A DNA stretch of 64,000 nt from Mucilaginibacter aquatilis (GTDB lineage: Bacteria; Bacteroidota; Bacteroidia; Sphingobacteriales; Sphingobacteriaceae), in the NCBI RefSeq assembly GCF_009755275.1, contig NZ_WQLA01000001.1, positions 186,001-250,000 on the forward strand, read 5' to 3'. This document shows, in pieces, positions 7,064 through 43,990 of this stretch. A program made the position numbers and the translations under genes. The notes under the pieces were generated by a model, which was given only the letters and a program-made list of their open reading frames with translations, was not told where the DNA came from and searched no databases. Numbering within the stretch: position 1 is the stretch's first letter; every line of letters starts with the position of its first letter.

Positions 7064-9377
<2,314 letters not shown>

Positions 9378-9381
<4 letters not shown>

Positions 9382-10361
9382 GAGAACGTGTACTGATTAC
9401 CGGTGCAAGTGGCTTTGTAGGTTATCATTTAGTTGAAGCAGCTTTAAAAGCCAACCTTGATGTTTTCGCAGCGGTACGTAAAAGCAGTAAAGTAGATCAT
9501 TTAAAAGAATTTGATATACAATACGCTTATACGAACTTTAATGATATCGACGCTTTAAGTAAAGAAATTGCAGAAAATCAATATGATTACATCATTCACG
9601 CCGCAGGTGTAACTAAAGCAAATTCTGCAGCCGAATACGATGCAGTTAATACCGGCTACGCGGTAAACCTTGCTAAGGCAGCGGTTAAAAGTAAACGTAT
9701 TAAAAAGTTTGTTTTTGTAAGCAGCTTAGCCGCAGTGGGACCTTTGAATACAACTGAAGGTTGCCTTACTGAAAATAGCATACAAGCGCCGGTTACCGCT
9801 TACGGTAACAGTAAAAAACGTGCTGAAGAAGCGTTTAAACAAATTGAAGGTTTAAATTACGTTATACTAAGACCAACTGCTGTATACGGCCCGCGTGATA
9901 AGGATATATTGATAGTACTTAAACAATTTGCAGGTGGCTTTGAACCGTACATAGGCCGTATAGACCAATACTTAAGCTTTATATATGTTAAAGACTTGGC
10001 CCAGGCATGTGTTTTGGGTTTAACACACGGACATAACAGCGCTTATTTGCTTTCTGACGGAAAACGTTATGACCGTTATGAATTAGCAAATATTACAAAA
10101 CGCTTACTTAGCGTTAAAACATTTAAAATACATTTGCCGGTGCCTGTAATAAGGGTTGTGGCTGGTATTGCCGAAGGCGTAAGCCGGATTACAAAAAAAG
10201 CATCAGCCTTAAATGTAGAAAAGCTGAATGAGCTGACTGCAGTAAGCTGGATTTGCAGTATTGATAAAGCACAGCAAGAATTAAATTTTGCACCGCAGTA
10301 CGATCTTGAGCGCGGGTTAGCCGAAACGCTTTCCTGGTATAAAGAAAATAAGTGGTTATAA
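9378..10361 (+). CDS. cerR: Extended SDR/epimerase-like reductase, probable ceramide reductase
   Basis: This 327-residue protein has the Rossmann start VLITGASGFVGYH, a SSLAAVGP catalytic-serine strand and a YGNSK active-site Tyr-Lys pair around residue 138-142, i.e. an NAD(P)-dependent extended short-chain dehydrogenase. In bacterial ceramide gene sets an epimerase-annotated protein, CerR, reduces the 3-keto group of the sphingoid intermediate. Position as third gene of an overlapping spt-GNAT-epimerase operon supports that role. A 23-bp perfect inverted repeat starts at its stop codon. A sugar epimerase is the alternative, but no sugar genes adjoin it. Confidence 0.8.
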
Positions 10362-10409
10362 AGTAAAATTATATCCCTTATCATTATGATAAGGGATATA
10401 ATTTTACTT
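10361..10409. repeat. 23-bp perfect inverted repeat at the 3' end of the ceramide operon
   Basis: Bases 10361-10383 are the exact reverse complement of 10387-10409 with a 3-base loop (TTA). The repeat begins on the last base of the cerR stop codon. The stem is AT-rich at its base with a CCCTTATC core and has no T-tract after it, so it may act as an mRNA 3'-end stabiliser or weak terminator between cerR and the inositol-phosphate synthase gene. Confidence 0.85.
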
Positions 10410-10524
10410 AATTACGAAATCGATTAAGTAAATAAATTTTGGCTTTTGCTTGCAATTGTCAAACAGACAACAAATATAAACAGCTACGGCTTTATATTAT
10501 ATTAAAATACAATAGAAAAAGAAG

Positions 10525-11847
10525 ATGGAAAACAACGTTAAACCTGCAAATGGCAAGCTAGGTATACTGATTCCGGGATTAGGTGCAGTAGCTACTACGC
10601 TTATTGCCGGTGTTGAAGCAGTAAACAAAGGCTTATCTAAACCAATTGGCGCCCTTACACAAATGGGTAACATCCGCCTTGGTAAAAGAACTGAAAATCG
10701 CTATCCGAAAATTAAAGAATTTGTTCCTTTAGCCAACCTTACAGACATTGTTTGGGGTGGTTGGGACGTATACTCAGATAACGTGTACGAAGCTGCTGTT
10801 AACGCTGAGGTGTTAGAAAGAAGCTTACTTGATTCGGTTAAAGCCGAGTTAGAGTCGGTTAAACCTATGACCGCTGCTTTTGATAAAAACTATGCTAAAA
10901 ACTTAGACGGTACGCACGTTAAAACCGGTACCCGTTTAGATATGGCTAATGAACTGATGGAAGATATTAAAAACTTTCAGGAGCAAAATGGCTTGGATCG
11001 CGTAGTTGTACTATGGTGTGGCTCTACCGAGGTTTACTTTGAAGAGTCACAAGTACACCAAAGCGTTGTTGCATTTGAGCAAGGTTTAGCTAATGATGAT
11101 AAACTGATTGCACCAAGCATGCTTTACGCGTACGCAGCATTAAAATTAGGTATTCCATTTGTTAACGGCGCTCCTAACTTAACTGTTGATATTCCTGCTT
11201 TAGTGGAGTTAGCAAAATATACCGAAACTCCAATTGCCGGTAAAGACTTTAAAACAGGCCAAACTTTAATGAAAACTATAGTTGCACCTGGTTTAGCAGC
11301 ACGTGCGTTAGGTGTAAACGGTTGGTTCTCTACTAATATTTTAGGTAACCGTGATGGCTATGTATTAGACGATCCGGATAACTTCAAAACCAAAGAGGTA
11401 TCTAAACTGAGCGTTCTTGAAGAAATTTTCAAGCCGGAGATTAACCAGGATTTGTATGGCGATATGTACCACAAAGTACGTATCAACTACTACCCTCCTC
11501 ACGGCGATGCAAAAGAAAGCTGGGATAACATTGACATTTTTGGTTGGTTAGGCTACAAAATGCAAATCAAAATTAACTTCCTTTGCCGCGATTCAATTCT
11601 TGCTGCACCTGTTGCACTAGACTTAGCTTTATTTAGCGATTTAGCTAAACGTGCAGGTATGAGTGGTGTTCAAGAGTGGTTATCATTCTACCTTAAATCG
11701 CCGCAAACTGCACCAGGCTTAGCTCCTGAGCACGATATATTTAAACAGTTAACCAAGTTGCAAAACACCCTGCGCCACATGATGGGCGAAGACTTAATTA
11801 CACATTTAGGTCTTGATTACTACCAGGATGTAGTTGACGCTATGTAA
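10525..11847 (+). CDS. ino1: myo-Inositol-1-phosphate synthase
   Basis: The 440-residue protein converts glucose 6-phosphate to myo-inositol 1-phosphate using NAD. It shows the N-terminal dinucleotide-binding segment (GILIPGLGAVATTLIAG), the VVLWCGSTEVY strand, the NGAPNLTVD segment, a GQTLMKT/IVAPGLAARALGV region with the active-site lysine, and the KINFLCRDSILAAP segment, all familiar from bacterial MIPS enzymes including those of Bacteroides. It follows the ceramide operon by 163 bases on the same strand, behind a hairpin, and may have its own promoter. In Bacteroides the homologous enzyme feeds inositol into inositol-phosphoceramide and inositol lipids, so this placement suggests the same use here. 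A purine-rich GAAAAAGAAG precedes the ATG. Confidence 0.92.
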   Translation: MENNVKPANGKLGILIPGLGAVATTLIAGVEAVNKGLSKPIGALTQMGNIRLGKRTENRYPKIKEFVPLANLTDIVWGGWDVYSDNVYEAAVNAEVLERSLLDSVKAELESVKPMTAAFDKNYAKNLDGTHVKTGTRLDMANELMEDIKNFQEQNGLDRVVVLWCGSTEVYFEESQVHQSVVAFEQGLANDDKLIAPSMLYAYAALKLGIPFVNGAPNLTVDIPALVELAKYTETPIAGKDFKTGQTLMKTIVAPGLAARALGVNGWFSTNILGNRDGYVLDDPDNFKTKEVSKLSVLEEIFKPEINQDLYGDMYHKVRINYYPPHGDAKESWDNIDIFGWLGYKMQIKINFLCRDSILAAPVALDLALFSDLAKRAGMSGVQEWLSFYLKSPQTAPGLAPEHDIFKQLTKLQNTLRHMMGEDLITHLGLDYYQDVVDAM

Positions 11848-14611: not shown

Positions 14612-15280
14612 TTGAACCGGAATACAAGCATATCGTTTAAGCAAAATTGGAAAGCTACCTGGAATTGCACTTCGCAGCGTTCACTCATGATCATTGGGTC
14701 TGTACTGGTTGCGCTCGTTCTTTCAGGAATGCCCATGTTTTTTCAGCACATTGAGCAACGCCCAGGTGTGCAGTTACATGATTATGTATTGGCACGCATA
14801 CCCAGCCATGATGTATCGCTATATATATTTTTGATTGAATGGGGAATGGGCCTTTTAACACTCATAAGGGCTATTAAAAACCCTGCCATCTATGTGCGTT
14901 ATGTATGGCTTTATGTTGCAATTAGCCTTACCCGGTTAATTACCATTACCCTTGTACCGCTTGCAGCACCGGCCAATTTAGTTGAATTGGTTGACCCTGT
15001 TACCGGCATATTTTATGGTCATGCGGTAATTACCAAAGATCTTTTCTACTCAGGCCATACATCAACACTGGTAGCCATGTATTTTTGCCTTCCCCGTAAA
15101 AGTGATCGTAAATTAGTTGTTGTTGCTACAATAGCTATGGCGTGCTTGTTGCTGGTACAGCACGTTCATTATACCATTGATATATTAGCTGCACCTGTGT
15201 TTGTGTTTTTGCTTAACCGTATCATGCAGTCAACCTTATTTTCTAACGTAAGGATAGATCAGGAAGTAGTAGAGTGCTAA
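14612..15280 (+). CDS. PAP2_C (sphingomyelin/IPC synthase-like) integral membrane phosphotransferase
   Basis: A 222-residue, roughly six-helix membrane protein. Its C-terminal half has FYSGHTST (His149) and HYTIDILAAP (His186, Asp190). These are the two catalytic motifs of the sphingomyelin-synthase/PAP2_C family (SGHT… and HYTxD), where a His-His-Asp triad moves a phospho-head-group onto ceramide; the spacing (His to His 37, His to Asp 4) resembles that family. The ordinary PAP2 signature KxxxxxxRP is not seen. Start is a TTG, the only start before an in-frame ATG at 14687; the frame opens at 14600. Its closeness to the ceramide genes and ino1 suggests an inositol-phosphoceramide or ceramide-phosphoethanolamine synthase, but a simple lipid phosphatase is possible. 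Confidence 0.8.
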   Translation: MNRNTSISFKQNWKATWNCTSQRSLMIIGSVLVALVLSGMPMFFQHIEQRPGVQLHDYVLARIPSHDVSLYIFLIEWGMGLLTLIRAIKNPAIYVRYVWLYVAISLTRLITITLVPLAAPANLVELVDPVTGIFYGHAVITKDLFYSGHTSTLVAMYFCLPRKSDRKLVVVATIAMACLLLVQHVHYTIDILAAPVFVFLLNRIMQSTLFSNVRIDQEVVEC

Positions 15281-23240: not shown

Positions 23241-24245
23241 ATGAAGAAAAAAAGTTTTAGATGGTCTGATGAGAGCGAACCGCACAAACACAGGACGAAG
23301 ACCATTATTAAAGAACATCCGGAATTGCGCACCCTTATAGGTCGTAATCCGTATACTTTTTTAGTTATATCACTTTGTGTTGGGGTACAAATTGCCGCTG
23401 CTTATTTTCTTAAAGATGCAGCATGGTACTGGATTGCACTGGCTGCTTATTGCATAGGTGCCTTTGCCTGTCATACCCTGTTTGTGTGCATTCATGAATG
23501 TGCCCACAACTTAATTTTTAAAAATAAGACTGCTAATACATGGGCAGGCATCTTTGCCAATTTGCCTACATTGCTGCCAAGCTCTGTATCGTTCCAAAAA
23601 TATCACTTAAAGCATCACTCATTTCAGGGCGTTGAAGCTTTAGATGCGGACATGCCTTTTCGCTGGGAAGCTAAACTTATTAATAATTCAACTTTTGGTA
23701 AAGCAATATGGTTGCTGTTCTACCCTATTTTCCAAGCTTTACGTCCATTCCGTTTAAAAGAAATTAACTTAGTTGACGGCTGGACTGCAGTTAACTGGTT
23801 GGTACAAATTGCCTTTACCGGTGCAGTGATTTACTTTTTAGGCTGGAAAGCTGTATTGTATCTTGTTTTAAGTTTCTTCTTCTCGGTTGGCTTGCATCCG
23901 CTGGGTGCACGTTGGGTTCAGGAGCATTTCTTAACACACGGCGAACAGGAAACAAAAAGTTATTACGGCAGGCTGAACGGGCCAAACCTTAACGTTGGCT
24001 TTCATAACGAGCACCATGATTTTCCTTCAATTCCATGGAACAATCTTCCAAAAGTTAAGGCAATTGCAGGCAAGCATTACGAGGATTTAGGTTACCATAC
24101 ATCGTACACCCGCTTACTGTTTGAATTTTTATTTGACCGCGAACTATCTGTGTTTTCACGTACAGCCCGCATTAACCGCGGCAAAATAGCGGCTCCTAAA
24201 GCTAAAACACTTGATGCTACCGAACCTGAGGTAAGTGTAGCTTAA
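23241..24245 (+). CDS. Membrane fatty-acyl desaturase resembling sphingolipid delta-4 desaturase (DES1)
   Basis: A 334-residue di-iron desaturase with three histidine boxes: HECAH at residues 85-89, HLKHH at 122-126 and HNEHHDFP at 255-262. Around them the wording tracks eukaryotic dihydroceramide delta-4 desaturase DES1 rather than ordinary bacterial acyl-lipid desaturases: an N-terminal PHKHRTKTIIKEHPEL like the DES1 'PHxxRRxxIxxxYPEI', FANLPTLLP, SVSFQKYHLKHHSFQG, GLHPLGARWVQEHF, and NVGFHNEHHDFPSIPWNNLP. Box positions and length (DES1 about 323) agree. I compared from memory, so homology level is unquantified. The genome makes ceramides (spt operon 13 kb away), so a substrate is plausible. 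It would introduce a trans double bond in the sphingoid base; hydroxylase activity is also possible. Confidence 0.82.
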   Translation: MKKKSFRWSDESEPHKHRTKTIIKEHPELRTLIGRNPYTFLVISLCVGVQIAAAYFLKDAAWYWIALAAYCIGAFACHTLFVCIHECAHNLIFKNKTANTWAGIFANLPTLLPSSVSFQKYHLKHHSFQGVEALDADMPFRWEAKLINNSTFGKAIWLLFYPIFQALRPFRLKEINLVDGWTAVNWLVQIAFTGAVIYFLGWKAVLYLVLSFFFSVGLHPLGARWVQEHFLTHGEQETKSYYGRLNGPNLNVGFHNEHHDFPSIPWNNLPKVKAIAGKHYEDLGYHTSYTRLLFEFLFDRELSVFSRTARINRGKIAAPKAKTLDATEPEVSVA

Positions 24246-24259
24246 GCTTAAACGTCATA

Positions 24260-24299
24260 AAAAAAGAAAGGGGATGCTACCGCATCCCCTTTCTTTTTT
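24260..24299. terminator. Bidirectional terminator between the desaturase and dsbA-like genes
   Basis: A perfect 18-bp stem (24260-24277 with 24282-24299, core GGGGATGC/GCATCCCC) flanked by A- and T-runs serves the two convergent genes. Confidence 0.93.
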
Positions 24300-24310
24300 A
24301 TAATAAATTA

Positions 24311-25009
24311 TCAGCAGTTACCATCAGTATCGCAACTTGCACCCTCGTCACCGTTATTGGTATAACCGGGCTGTTGATACTCAGCATACGCGCTTATTAG
24401 TGTGTTTAAGAAAACTTCCGTTGCCTGTGCTCCTGATACAGCATAGCGGTCATTCACTACGAAAAACGGCACTCCTCTTATGCCAAGCTGTGCCGCTTCA
24501 TCTATATCAATGCTAACATCGTGCTTGTAAGCATCACTGTTAAGCATAGCTTTTACCTCTTCGCTGTCAATACCAATGGCTTCACCCAAAGATGCCAGTG
24601 TATCATCATCATCAATATTTTGACCGCCAGTAAAGTAAGCATTGAATAGCTGCTCTTCAGCCGCATCGCTCTTATTGTATTTTTTTGCCAGGTGAGTAAA
24701 GCGGTGGGCATTAAAACTGTTAGCAACAACTGCATTATCAAAATTATAACTTAAGCCAACCTGGTCGGCCATTTCGGTTACTTGCTGGCCAACTTGCTTT
24801 GCGTAATCTATTGTCCAGCCTTTGGCATCGGCAAGGTACTGGTGTATACTGATATTAGGGTTGGTTTCAAGAGCTGGATTAAGCTGAAAGCTCTTCCATT
24901 CAATTTGCACATCGTCTTTAAACTCAAAAGCGTTTAAGGCTTGCTCAAACCGCCGTTTGCCAATGTAGCAGAACGGACACATTACATCCGACCATATTTT
25001 TATTTTCAT
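24311..25009 (-). CDS. DsbA-family oxidoreductase, FrnE-like
   Basis: From ATG at 25009 the 232-residue protein begins MKIKIWSDVMCPFCYIGKRR, a thioredoxin-fold active site CPFC (Cys11, Cys14) of the FrnE/2-hydroxychromene-isomerase-like DsbA group. RGVPFFVVNDRYAVSGAQ near residue 180 is the cis-Pro region. No signal peptide, so it is cytosolic; the 11-residue upstream extension to 25042 is not needed. The C-terminus has an extra pair of cysteines (SCDTDGNC). Likely role is thiol-disulfide exchange under oxidative stress. It is 86 bases downstream of the next minus-strand gene. Confidence 0.9.
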   Translation of the reverse strand: MKIKIWSDVMCPFCYIGKRRFEQALNAFEFKDDVQIEWKSFQLNPALETNPNISIHQYLADAKGWTIDYAKQVGQQVTEMADQVGLSYNFDNAVVANSFNAHRFTHLAKKYNKSDAAEEQLFNAYFTGGQNIDDDDTLASLGEAIGIDSEEVKAMLNSDAYKHDVSIDIDEAAQLGIRGVPFFVVNDRYAVSGAQATEVFLNTLISAYAEYQQPGYTNNGDEGASCDTDGNC

Positions 25010-25095
25010 AGCAATAACAATAAAGCCAAATGTAGTAAGCATTATATATGCTTAGCTGCACTACCCGTAGGTATTACGATTGAATGACAGCTTAA

Positions 25096-40497: not shown

Positions 40498-41307
40498 ATG
40501 GATCAACAAAACAGCACATCTGCCGAGCTACCAAAGGCCGAGCCATCAATTTTTAAAGGATTTAAGCAATTCTTTATTGATGTTTATGATGTATTTCGCT
40601 TCATATTCCGCTTCTTTAAAGAAGTGTTTGCACCGCCGTATGAATTCAGGGAGCTGATAAAACAATGCTGGGAAGTGGGTGTACGCTCCTTACTGCTTAT
40701 AACTGTAACAGGTTTCATTGTAGGCTTAATATTCACTAAACAATCAAGACCATCGTTACTGCAATTTGGTGCAACTTCATGGATTCCGTCTTTGGTTTCC
40801 ATAGCTATTATGCGTGCCCTTGCTCCGTTGGTTACAGCGCTTATCAGCGCCGGACGCGTAGGTTCCAGTATTGGTGCCGAGCTTGGCTCAATGCGCGTAA
40901 CTGAGCAAATTGATGCCATGGAAGTATCAGGAACGCATCCATTTAAATACCTGGTTTGTATGCGTACGCTTGCCACTACAATTGCAATCCCACTGCTATC
41001 GGTATATAATGGTTTAATTGCCATGCTTGGCGGTTATTTGAACGTTTACGTTAACGAGGGTACCAGTTTTACAACTTATGTTCAGCAGTTTTTTCAGCCT
41101 TTAGGATATATCGACTTCTTTTCATCACTAGCTAAAGCAACCATCTTTGGTTTTACCATTGGTATTGTGGGAAGCTATAAGGGCTGGAACTCATCAAGCG
41201 GTACAGCTGGTGTAGGTAAAGCAGCTAACTCCGCAGTGGTAACGGCCATGTTCCTGGTGTTTATTGAGGAAGTAATTATTGTACAAATAACCGGCTGGTT
41301 CCGCTAA
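40498..41307 (+). CDS. mlaE: MlaE-family ABC transporter permease
   Basis: The 269-residue inner-membrane protein has five to six helices and MlaE landmarks: LITVTGFIVGLIFTKQ, PLVTALISAGRVGSSIGAELGSMRVTEQIDAMEV (the conserved cytoplasmic coupling segment, slightly more than quoted here), and the late FLVFIEEVIIVQI. With the next two genes it forms a phospholipid (Mla-type) transporter between outer and inner membranes. Eleven bases separate it from the ATPase gene. A charged Gln/Lys-rich N-terminal tail of about 40 residues precedes the first helix. Confidence 0.94.
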   Translation: MDQQNSTSAELPKAEPSIFKGFKQFFIDVYDVFRFIFRFFKEVFAPPYEFRELIKQCWEVGVRSLLLITVTGFIVGLIFTKQSRPSLLQFGATSWIPSLVSIAIMRALAPLVTALISAGRVGSSIGAELGSMRVTEQIDAMEVSGTHPFKYLVCMRTLATTIAIPLLSVYNGLIAMLGGYLNVYVNEGTSFTTYVQQFFQPLGYIDFFSSLAKATIFGFTIGIVGSYKGWNSSSGTAGVGKAANSAVVTAMFLVFIEEVIIVQITGWFR

Positions 41308-41318
41308 ACAAATAAGAA

Positions 41319-42092
41319 ATGGGAAAGCAACACCACGCCATAGATTACAACGAGAAAGTGATAAGCATAAAGGGTTTAACAAAATCCTTTGGCAGCTATC
41401 ACGTGCTTCGCGGTATAGATCTCGACTTGTTTAAAAACGAAAACCTTGTTGTTTTAGGTCGCTCGGGTACAGGTAAGTCTGTTTTAATTAAAATAATATC
41501 AGGTCTACTTAGGGCCGATGTCGGGCAGGTAAGCGTATTGGGCAACGAAGTGGTTGGCATAAGCACCCGCGATTTGCAGGAACTCAGGCGCCGTATAGGT
41601 TTTTCGTTTCAAAACAGTGCGTTGTATGACAGTATGACTGTGCGCAAAAATCTGGAGTTTCCATTGGTGCGTAACCAAAAGAACTTAAAGCGTAAGGAAA
41701 TTGACAGTATGGTTGAGCGGGTGCTTGAAGCAGTTGGTTTAAAGCAAACCATCAATCAAATGCCTGCGGAGCTATCGGGCGGTCAGCGTAAGCGCATTGG
41801 CATAGCCCGTACCTTAATTTTACGGCCCGAAATAATGCTGTATGATGAGCCTACGGCCGGTCTAGACCCCATCACATCGATGGAAATAAATAATTTAATT
41901 AACAGCGTGCAGGAGCGCTTTAATACATCATCTATCATCATCACCCATGACCTTACCTGCGCTAAGGCGGTTGGCGACAGGGTGGCAATGCTTTTAGATG
42001 GACAGTTTCAGCGCCAGGGTGCGTTTGAAGAGGTTTTTGATACTGATGATGTGCGCGTGAAACAGTTTTACGACTATAACTTTACCGATTGA
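41319..42092 (+). CDS. mlaF: Mla-type ABC transporter ATP-binding protein
   Basis: The 257-residue ATPase has Walker A GRSGTGKS (about residue 49-56), signature LSGGQRKR, Walker B EIMLYDEP and the switch histidine in IITHD. It powers the MlaE permease. Five-base gap to the MCE gene; same operon. Confidence 0.95.
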   Translation: MGKQHHAIDYNEKVISIKGLTKSFGSYHVLRGIDLDLFKNENLVVLGRSGTGKSVLIKIISGLLRADVGQVSVLGNEVVGISTRDLQELRRRIGFSFQNSALYDSMTVRKNLEFPLVRNQKNLKRKEIDSMVERVLEAVGLKQTINQMPAELSGGQRKRIGIARTLILRPEIMLYDEPTAGLDPITSMEINNLINSVQERFNTSSIIITHDLTCAKAVGDRVAMLLDGQFQRQGAFEEVFDTDDVRVKQFYDYNFTD

Positions 42093-42096
42093 TATA

Positions 42097-43089
42097 ATGG
42101 AATTAAAAGAAAATAAGTATGCTTTTTGGGTAGGCCTGTTTATAGCAGCAGGTGTGCTCATTTTTGTTGTAGGCATATTCACTTTAGGCAACCAGCAAAA
42201 AAGCTTTAACGATGGTTTGCACCTGCGTGCCCGTTTTGCAAACGTATCGGGGTTAATAAAAGGTAACAACGTTTGGTTTTCGGGTGTAAAGGTAGGTACT
42301 ATTAAAAAAATCACCTTTAGCGGTATTAACCAGGTTGATGTTGATTTTAATGTAGACCCATCAATTCAGCAATACATTCATAAAGATGCCGTAGCAGAGA
42401 TAAGTTCTGAAGGGTTTATTGGCAACAAAATTATAGCTATTGATGGTGGTACCCCTTCCGCGCCGGTAATTGAAAACGGAACGCTCATGAACTCAAAAGG
42501 TATGCTCAATACCGACGAGATTATGAAGACGTTTCAAAAGAACAATCAAAACCTTGTATCAATTACCACCGACTTTAAAACCCTGGCTAAAAATATGGTT
42601 GAGGGCAAAGGCTTAGCAGGCTCTTTACTGGCCGACTCGGCATTGGCTTTACAATTCAGAACTGTTGTGGCCAACCTGCAAAGCACAACCTTGCGCACGT
42701 CACAAATGGCTAATGAGCTTAACCGCTTTGGGGTAAAAATGAATACCAAAGGTGGCCTTGCCGATAAAATGCTTACCGACACAGCTGTATTTGCCAAACT
42801 ACAGCAATCAGCCAATCAATTGCAGGAAGCAACAGCTAACGCCGGTGTACTTACAGACAATTTAAATAAAGCAAGTGCCAAGCTAAACAGCACTGATAAC
42901 CCTATGGGTGCATTGCTTAACGATCAAAAATCGGCAGAAGAATTAAAAAGCATGCTTCACTATCTTAACGAAAGTTCCATTAAGTTGAATGACGACCTTG
43001 AAGCTGTTCAGCATAACTTTTTGTTGAGAGGCTTTTTCAAAAAACGCGAAAAAGAGGAGAAGAAAGCTCAGGAAGCTCCAAAAAAATAA
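42097..43089 (+). CDS. mlaD: MCE-domain (MlaD) lipid-transport protein
   Basis: The 330-residue protein has one N-terminal transmembrane anchor (YAFWVGLFIAAGVLIFVVGIF) and an MCE domain from about residue 35 to 125 (LHLRARFANVSGLIKGNNVWFSGVKVG and GFIGNKIIAIDGG), then a long helical coil, ending in a Lys/Glu-rich tail. It forms the periplasmic ring that carries lipids to the permease. The long helical extension, beyond a plain MlaD, resembles tunnel-forming MCE proteins. Confidence 0.93.
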   Translation: MELKENKYAFWVGLFIAAGVLIFVVGIFTLGNQQKSFNDGLHLRARFANVSGLIKGNNVWFSGVKVGTIKKITFSGINQVDVDFNVDPSIQQYIHKDAVAEISSEGFIGNKIIAIDGGTPSAPVIENGTLMNSKGMLNTDEIMKTFQKNNQNLVSITTDFKTLAKNMVEGKGLAGSLLADSALALQFRTVVANLQSTTLRTSQMANELNRFGVKMNTKGGLADKMLTDTAVFAKLQQSANQLQEATANAGVLTDNLNKASAKLNSTDNPMGALLNDQKSAEELKSMLHYLNESSIKLNDDLEAVQHNFLLRGFFKKREKEEKKAQEAPKK

Positions 43090-43121
43090 TCAAGAATTTT
43101 GGCTTGCTTAAGCCGTATGTT

Positions 43122-43173
43122 ATAAAGCAATGTTGCATTTTGTTATCTAAATGCAACATTGCTTTATTTTTTG
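43122..43173 (+). terminator. Terminator of the Mla operon
   Basis: A perfect 19-bp stem (43122-43140 with 43149-43167) with an 8-base loop and a T6 tail, 33 bases after the mlaD stop. Confidence 0.93.
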
Positions 43174-43222
43174 CGTATAGGTGAATAAATAATTAACGCA
43201 AAGAAAAAAACAGCATTGAGCC

Positions 43223-43990
43223 ATGTTACTCGATTTTAGTGAGAAAACCGTACTTATAACCGGCGGTTCGCGCGGTATAGGTAAAGCTTGCGCAATGCTG
43301 TTTGCATCGTTAAATGCAGACGTTATAATTACTTATAACAAAAATCTGGATGATGCCGAAAGGACAATCACCCAACTCCCACACCGAGGTAATCACGCAC
43401 TGTACCAGTTAGACCAAAGTAAACCTAAATGCGTACAACGTTTCTTTGATAAATTTTTAGATCATTACCCGCAACTGGATGTGTTGGTGAACAATGCAGG
43501 TATATATCTGGAGCACAAAATAGAAGAAATTGAATTTGATGAATGGCAGCACACCTGGCAAGACACTATAAATACCAACCTAAACGGCGTAGCAAACCTG
43601 TGTTATTTTGCCTCTAGGCAAATGATGCATCAGGGAGGCGGTAAAATAATCAATATATCATCGCGCGGGGCTTTCCGGGGCGAACCAAATCATCCGGCTT
43701 ATGCTGCAAGTAAGGCGGGCCTCAATGCCATGAGCCAGTCTTTAGCAGTTAGCCTTGCGCCAAGTAATATTAGTGTGCACATCATAGCACCAGGCTTTGT
43801 TGAAACAGATATGACAGCTTCCATACTGAATGCAGATGAAGGGGAAGAAATTAAAAAGCAAAGTCCCTTTAACCGCGTGGCCGCAACAGACGAGGTAGCT
43901 CGCCTGGCAGCTGTTTATGCCTCGGAAGGGTTTGAGTTTACAAGTGGCGGTATAATAGATATAAACGGAGCTTCCTATTTAAGAACATAA
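43223..43990 (+). CDS. Short-chain dehydrogenase/reductase, FabG-like
   Basis: The 255-residue SDR has LITGGSRGIGKA, LVNNAGIYLEH, NISSRGAFRG with catalytic Ser and YAASKAGLN with the Tyr-Lys pair near residues 157-161, and a C-terminal substrate loop ending IIDINGASYL. Typical NAD(P)-dependent ketoacyl-reductase-like fold. It has its own terminator-separated transcript and no acyl-carrier context, so substrate is open. Confidence 0.9.
   Translation: MLLDFSEKTVLITGGSRGIGKACAMLFASLNADVIITYNKNLDDAERTITQLPHRGNHALYQLDQSKPKCVQRFFDKFLDHYPQLDVLVNNAGIYLEHKIEEIEFDEWQHTWQDTINTNLNGVANLCYFASRQMMHQGGGKIINISSRGAFRGEPNHPAYAASKAGLNAMSQSLAVSLAPSNISVHIIAPGFVETDMTASILNADEGEEIKKQSPFNRVAATDEVARLAAVYASEGFEFTSGGIIDINGASYLRT

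Follow-up and report, generated by a model that had tools for sequence, protein, structure and literature searches.

Much of animal sphingolipid signalling depends on the Δ4 double bond that distinguishes ceramide from dihydroceramide, and the resulting sphingosine-like backbone is best known from animals. The vertebrate enzymes closest to the protein described here are DES1 (DEGS1) and DES2 (DEGS2, a Δ4-desaturase/C4-monooxygenase). A passage of a 2026 review places DEGS1 among 'early eukaryotic' enzymes (PMC12993136). In bacteria, the inositol-lipid cluster of Bacteroides thetaiotaomicron is described as comprising myo-inositol-1-phosphate synthase (MIPS), PgpA, GtrA, a CDP-transferase and an AUR1-like protein, in a paper whose main text does not contain the word 'desaturase' (PMC9246714). 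Here we describe a DES-family membrane desaturase encoded on the + strand at 23241..24245 of a 64,000-nucleotide stretch of the Mucilaginibacter aquatilis genome (hereafter the window; contig NZ_WQLA01000001.1, positions 186,001 to 250,000). An earlier note on this DNA had taken the protein for a bacterial form of DES1. Its sequence places it instead in a separate clade of the DES family, and we consider it somewhat more probable than its opposite that the encoded enzyme desaturates bacterial dihydroceramide between C4 and C5 of the sphinganine backbone and so yields sphingosine-type ceramides.

The open reading frame (ATG start, TAA stop) encodes 334 amino acids. Two Pfam domains scored above their cut-offs: the DES-specific N-terminal domain Lipid_DES (PF08557) at residues 3-38 (45.7 bits, cut-off 23; vertebrate DES1 and DES2 score 74 and 77 bits) and FA_desaturase (PF00487) at residues 63-282 (88.1 bits, cut-off 29.7). 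The histidine boxes are H85/H89, H122/H125/H126 and H255/H258/H259, with H229 and N251 in addition; all of these residues are invariant across an alignment of 35 rows except H89, which is conserved in at least 90%. In a BLASTP comparison with DES1 of Saimiri the protein scored 241 bits with 37% identity over 319 residues, and in one further comparison it was 38.4% identical to a DES2 and 37.8% to DES1. No NCBIfam model came near its cut-off: the best, GntB arginine hydroxylase (NF041365), reached 33.3 bits against a cut-off of 380, and the DesA acyl-lipid desaturase model (NF052548) only 23.1 bits against 500. A sequence search of the PDB returned zero matches at E 10. The AlphaFold2 model (mean pLDDT 85.6, pTM 0.84) predicts a fold of the right kind. 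The solved folds nearest to this model were chains 8xks_K and 8xqw_M of the chloroplast Orf2971/Ycf2-FtsHi motor complexes, with AlkB and SCD1 ranking lower.

All motifs quoted in the earlier note (PHKHR, FANLP, SFQKYHLKHH, GLHPLG and NVGFHNEHHDFP) are present in the protein. Motifs were counted in 120 window-like, 120 vertebrate and 120 Balneola-like matches and in 32 other PF00487 loci of the same phylum (the middle open reading frames of L032-L063, at least two of which contain the same gene). SFxxYHxxHH was found in 120, 108 and 112 of these matches, respectively, and NVG[YF]H[NM]EHHDFP in 115, 107 and 112, both being absent from all 32 other loci; PHxxR occurred in 117, 101 and 120 matches and in one of the 32. 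A relaxed FANLP pattern was less specific (119, 116 and 113 matches, yet 7 of the 32 other loci). SFxxYHxxHH and NVG[YF]H[NM]EHHDFP mark the DES family, and the resemblance of the window protein to that family is far above chance. The wording that the note had described as shared with DES1 agrees at most of these motifs and departs from it at the GLHPLG stretch, where the window protein reads LHPLGARWVQEH and DES1 reads LHPISGHFIAEH. The corresponding clade motif, HPLGARWVQEH in the window protein, was present as HPLGARWxQEH (GARW) in all 120 window-like matches and in 76 of 80 genome loci. The SGHF-type stretch (HPxSGHFxxEH) was found in 105 of the 120 vertebrate matches (14 of the remaining 15 were without the whole stretch) and in all 120 Balneola-like matches.

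The main phylogenetic tree comprised 54 DES proteins: the window protein, 31 locus-derived bacterial sequences, 13 bacterial database sequences and 9 vertebrate sequences (vertebrates were the only eukaryotes in our trees). It contained a window clade of 27 rows (support 100/98), a clade of 16 bacterial rows with the SGHF motif (100/97) and the vertebrate DES1/DES2 block of 9 rows (100/99), the last two being united at 100/99; two further bacterial rows clustered (93/87) on the same side as the window clade. A grouping of the window clade with vertebrates against the rest was rejected by the approximately unbiased (AU) test (p-AU 0.0002). In an 80-row tree that included nine other PF00487 proteins, the 71 DES rows were separated from eight of the nine outgroup rows with support 80; the ninth, L033, was drawn into the window clade with a branch length of 10, a placement we read as an artefact. 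The root of this tree is unsure, because the outgroup branches mostly measured 7-10 changes per column and rooting failed.

P0244, a bacterial protein of the SGHF clade whose matches include records of Balneolaceae, Ignavibacteria and Saprospiraceae, has 49% identity with DES1 and 42% identity with the window protein; it shares with the latter its bacterial origin and both domains and differs in falling with the vertebrates in the tree, closer to DES1. DES1 has both Pfam domains, length, histidine boxes and most of the flanking wording in common with the window protein, but it reads HPxSGHFxAEH where the window protein reads HPLGARWxQEH, it has an MG start that the window protein lacks, and it groups with the SGHF bacteria. 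DES2 belongs to the same family at a similar identity and shows the same differences. The window protein was not found in the DES1/DES2 subclade: it stands on the other side of the split and lacks HPxSGHFxAEH. Orthology to DES1 was considered and ruled out, as both the tree and the AU test unite another bacterial clade with the vertebrates. Since the tree, the AU test, the identities and the GARW/SGHF stretch agree, the protein is best described as a member of a separate clade of the DES family, and the nearest bacterial kin of DES1 among the sampled sequences is the SGHF clade. Membership of the DES family rather than of the ordinary acyl-lipid desaturases, which the note had proposed together with a phylogeny as its check, is thus borne out by Lipid_DES, by the motif counts and by the separation from eight of nine outgroup rows, while the DES1-like form finds no support in the same trees, in which SGHF bacteria stand nearer to DES1.

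The best functional evidence comes from relatives of the gene on other contigs. We examined the best 80 of 551 relatives and divided them into type I (at least 66% identical to the window protein; 32 loci) and type II (58-62%; 48 loci), a limit of 66% that was set after the values were known. In two type I loci, L072 and L079, a desaturase with 72-73% identity to the window protein occupies the eleventh place in a tightly packed run of 13 same-strand genes with gaps of -50 to +48 bases, in the order SPT (serine palmitoyltransferase), GNAT, SDR, MIPS, PgpA, GtrA, DUF5686, CDP-alcohol transferase, DUF4833, FA_hydroxylase, DES, PAP2_3 and TetR (Pfam was run on L079, in which GNAT scored slightly below its cut-off). 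Corresponding genes of the two loci are 42-86% identical, so the shared gene order has survived genuine divergence. L074 adds no independent case, since it nearly duplicates L072 (DES 98.2% identical). The first four genes are 45-73% identical to their counterparts in the window. The FA_hydroxylase resembles the yeast ceramide hydroxylase SCS7 (107 bits), and the PAP2 protein is of the AUR1 type. Compared with the B. thetaiotaomicron cluster BT_1522-1526, as far as it is described in PMC9246714, the L079 operon has the same kinds of genes (MIPS, PgpA, GtrA, CDP-alcohol transferase and PAP2_3), whereas SPT, the N-acyltransferase, the reductase, FA_hydroxylase and DES are additional in L079 and L072. 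Nine of the 48 type II loci have another FA_hydroxylase downstream of DES on the same strand (two were checked by Pfam). A near-identical operon, collinear with that of a Flavipsychrobacter-titled contig, is found on L072 ('uncultured Bacteroides sp.') and on L074 ('Azovibrio restrictus'); these two contig titles are probably mis-binned or mis-named.

Because close relatives of the desaturase share an operon with genes for ceramide-type lipids, production of sphingosine-like lipids by these bacteria is likely. The enzyme would most likely act at C4 of the ceramide backbone, with Δ4 desaturation as the predicted reaction. In the pathway that we propose, SPT, the GNAT-like acyltransferase and the reductase would make dihydroceramide, the N-acylated sphinganine that is the presumed substrate; the desaturase would then oxidise C4-C5 to a Δ4 sphingosine-type backbone, as the family and the operon of the relatives suggest, and could act before, alongside or after the addition of inositol-phosphate or another head group. 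As with other membrane desaturases, the reaction would be expected to depend on a di-metal centre and O2. Family membership, the conserved histidines, the predicted fold, the SPT operon in the window and the operon membership of the relatives are the evidence for the proposed pathway, and it is from these that we infer the substrate, the bond position and the product.

The window itself contains a sphingolipid operon at 7064-11847. It starts with a 401-amino-acid SPT at 7064..8269 (+; NF047600 747 bits, cut-off 640; 623 bits to the PDB SPT entries 8guh/3a2b), followed by a GNAT-like protein at 8266..9381 (+; Acetyltransf_1 29.3 bits, cut-off 20.7), a likely ceramide-forming N-acyltransferase as judged from its position, and by an NAD(P)-dependent epimerase/dehydratase-type protein at 9378..10361 (+; PF01370 120.9 bits). 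The latter is by its position likely a keto-ceramide/keto-sphinganine reductase, which we take to be CerR-like. These three genes are joined by successive 4-base overlaps, and MIPS follows at 10525..11847 (+; PF07994 333 bits, PF01658 110 bits). A PAP2_C membrane protein at 14612..15280 (+; PF14360 32.7 bits, cut-off 27) is a possible ceramide head-group transferase. That the genome makes ceramides, as the earlier note supposed, agrees with the SPT score above a curated cut-off and with the relatives inside a ceramide/inositol-ceramide operon. The desaturase starts 11.4 kb past the SPT operon; this spacing was considered as proof of a shared pathway and dropped, as it is not kept across the genus.

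In the family of the window, 76 of 301 genomes carry a DES gene (71 of the 73 genomes of its genus and five others), and DES is a near-fixed trait of the genus. The 71 genomes have either type I (13) or type II (58), and the search found none with both, a pattern that resembles replacement of one type by the other. M. galii, for example, has type I and M. gossypii type II. Six genomes of the genus carry a second, divergent DES gene (L169, L170 and L171 in G678, G576 and G666, and those of G633, G459 and G657) that is 36-38% identical to the window protein; the second copy at L171 retains Lipid_DES (40.7 bits). All but one (G434) of the 76 DES-containing genomes have an SPT over the cut-off, and DES was found in 75 of 210 genomes with SPT versus one of 91 without (Fisher p 7.5e-13, with genomes treated as independent).

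Several observations weigh against a function in ceramide synthesis. The family-level co-occurrence of DES and SPT comes mostly from one genus (DES was found in 4 of 22 genera, in three of them in genomes with SPT) and is weak evidence. In a sample of 392 genomes of the phylum, with DES defined by Lipid_DES over its cut-off and a match to cysteate-C-fatty acyltransferase (CFAT, the capnine-forming enzyme) by E 1e-90, DES was present in 41 genomes, SPT over the cut-off in 19 and both in nine; the 32 DES-containing genomes without such an SPT speak against a strict tie to that SPT type. Seventeen of the 41 had neither SPT over the cut-off nor a CFAT match, and this lowered our confidence in Δ4 desaturation of dihydroceramide to only a little above even. 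Of the 32 type I loci, three showed linkage to SPT, and two of these three nearly duplicate each other; the other 29 had no match to the window SPT, acyltransferase, reductase or MIPS in the flanking sequence covered, up to 10 kb on each side. Within the genus, eight of the 12 other type I genomes (G588, G481, G591, G516, G558, G519, G672 and G491) carry both DES and SPT on a single contig, separated by at least 268 kb, and the remaining four have them on separate contigs; DES is thus unlinked to SPT in the genus, and the spacing in the window may be accidental. The SGHF stretch of DES1 is lost in the window clade, and the substrate could be of the capnine type, given the CFAT in the genome. 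Outside the class, four DES-containing genomes (G191, G051, G236 and G365; L144-L147) encode an AOS-family enzyme that scored 490-500 bits with the SPT model, for which the cut-off is 640. Three of them (G051, G236 and G365) belong to the 17 without SPT or CFAT, each with an SPT-like enzyme of about 490 bits, and the enzyme of G191 (L144), whose genome also matches CFAT, scored 419 bits to SPT 8guh/3a2b versus 286 to the best KBL/BioF-type PDB entry. Matches of this strength are found in most genomes of the sample outside the class, with or without DES.

The main alternatives are that the enzyme acts on capnine or that it hydroxylates C4. That it desaturates or hydroxylates capnine, the sulfonolipid backbone, instead of or besides dihydroceramide, is unlikely in our estimate, although capnine is a structural analogue of sphinganine and the genome encodes a CFAT orthologue (G000:C1:693026-694246; locus L181, 10009-11250, - strand). 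This orthologue scored 599.5 bits and is 65% identical to L156, which in turn matches two PDB entries named cysteate-C-fatty acyltransferase, 7u7h (611 bits) and 28eh (577 bits). A CFAT match was also found in 24 of the 41 DES-containing genomes of the phylum sample (15 of 15 within the class and nine of 26 outside). Seven DES-containing genomes of the class without an SPT over the cut-off (G146, G150, G249, G355, G367, G370 and G434) all matched CFAT at 560 bits or more. Within the class, however, CFAT was present in all but seven genomes of the same family and class in that sample and is uninformative there, so that the 15 of 15 were dropped as proof and show only that a sphinganine-like backbone is available; moreover, G405 has a type I DES and zero CFAT match, and the type I operon contains SPT, with no CFAT seen there. 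Unsaturated sulfonolipids occur in some marine bacteria, which we did not use as evidence. Sphingolipids and sulfonolipids may be mutually exclusive according to a passage of a review (PMC10191378); despite this suggestion, the genome of the window combines CFAT and SPT, and 12 of the 19 phylum-sample genomes whose SPT exceeds the cut-off have a CFAT match too.

We regard it as distinctly improbable that the enzyme is mainly a C4-hydroxylase leading to phytoceramide-type bases, as in the second activity of DES2. DES2 shares the fold family and the boxes and is as near as DES1, and the FA_hydroxylase-family neighbour suggests hydroxylated products in the pathway; yet that operon already contains, in this neighbour, a separate hydroxylase, and none of the residue rules tested separates desaturase from hydroxylase activity. 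An acyl-lipid desaturase acting on phospholipid fatty acyl or amide-linked chains seems just as improbable: such a role would fit the wide PF00487 superfamily and the many DES-containing genomes without SPT over the cut-off, among them the 17 that also lack CFAT, but it is opposed by the Lipid_DES domain, the tree, the diagnostic wording missing from all 32 other PF00487 loci, the low DesA score and the operon context of the relatives.

The preferred activity, Δ4 desaturation of dihydroceramide, would mean that some bacteria make host-like ceramide backbones, that attributing sphingosine to eukaryotes in mixed samples is unsafe and that where DES1 originated would become a bacterial question. 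In contrast to the placement of DEGS1 in the passage of PMC12993136 cited above, DES clades occur in bacteria, for example in nearly all sampled genomes of the genus. A characterised bacterial DES was not found in the literature searched, with most subscription papers outside the search. The protein is not rare, which makes the case of the earlier note weaker than stated: of 6061 candidates in the protein database, 4712 qualified as homologues at E 1e-3, and the sources of several already call them 'sphingolipid delta-4 desaturase' on the basis of homology. New are the bacterial DES clade with its own motif and the operon that points to a pathway, the family label being already in databases. 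A broader picture, which we hold to be doubtful, is that Mucilaginibacter and Flavipsychrobacter (the latter from one operon) make true Δ4-unsaturated inositol-phosphoceramides, that the DES family, which builds animal ceramide, is ancient in bacteria and has two or more branches there, of which one lies closest to DES1, and that the branch studied here also acts on capnine. One enzyme would then unsaturate both sphingolipids and sulfonolipids.

A scan of IMG/VR gave 32 pattern matches, of which none was a relative, and a tblastn search of plasmids gave zero matches at E 1e-30. A locus titled 'uncultured Mucilaginibacter sp.' (L066) has a 99% identical desaturase in the same neighbourhood. Downstream of the desaturase, a GC-rich hairpin (ggggatgc-tacc-gcatcccc) followed by a T run at 24270..24299 was read in the sequence as an apparent terminator, which separates the gene from a convergent gene at 24311-25042. 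Further along the window, at 40498-43990, an MlaE permease, an ABC ATPase, an MlaD protein and a short-chain dehydrogenase stand in a row as a lipid-transport set.
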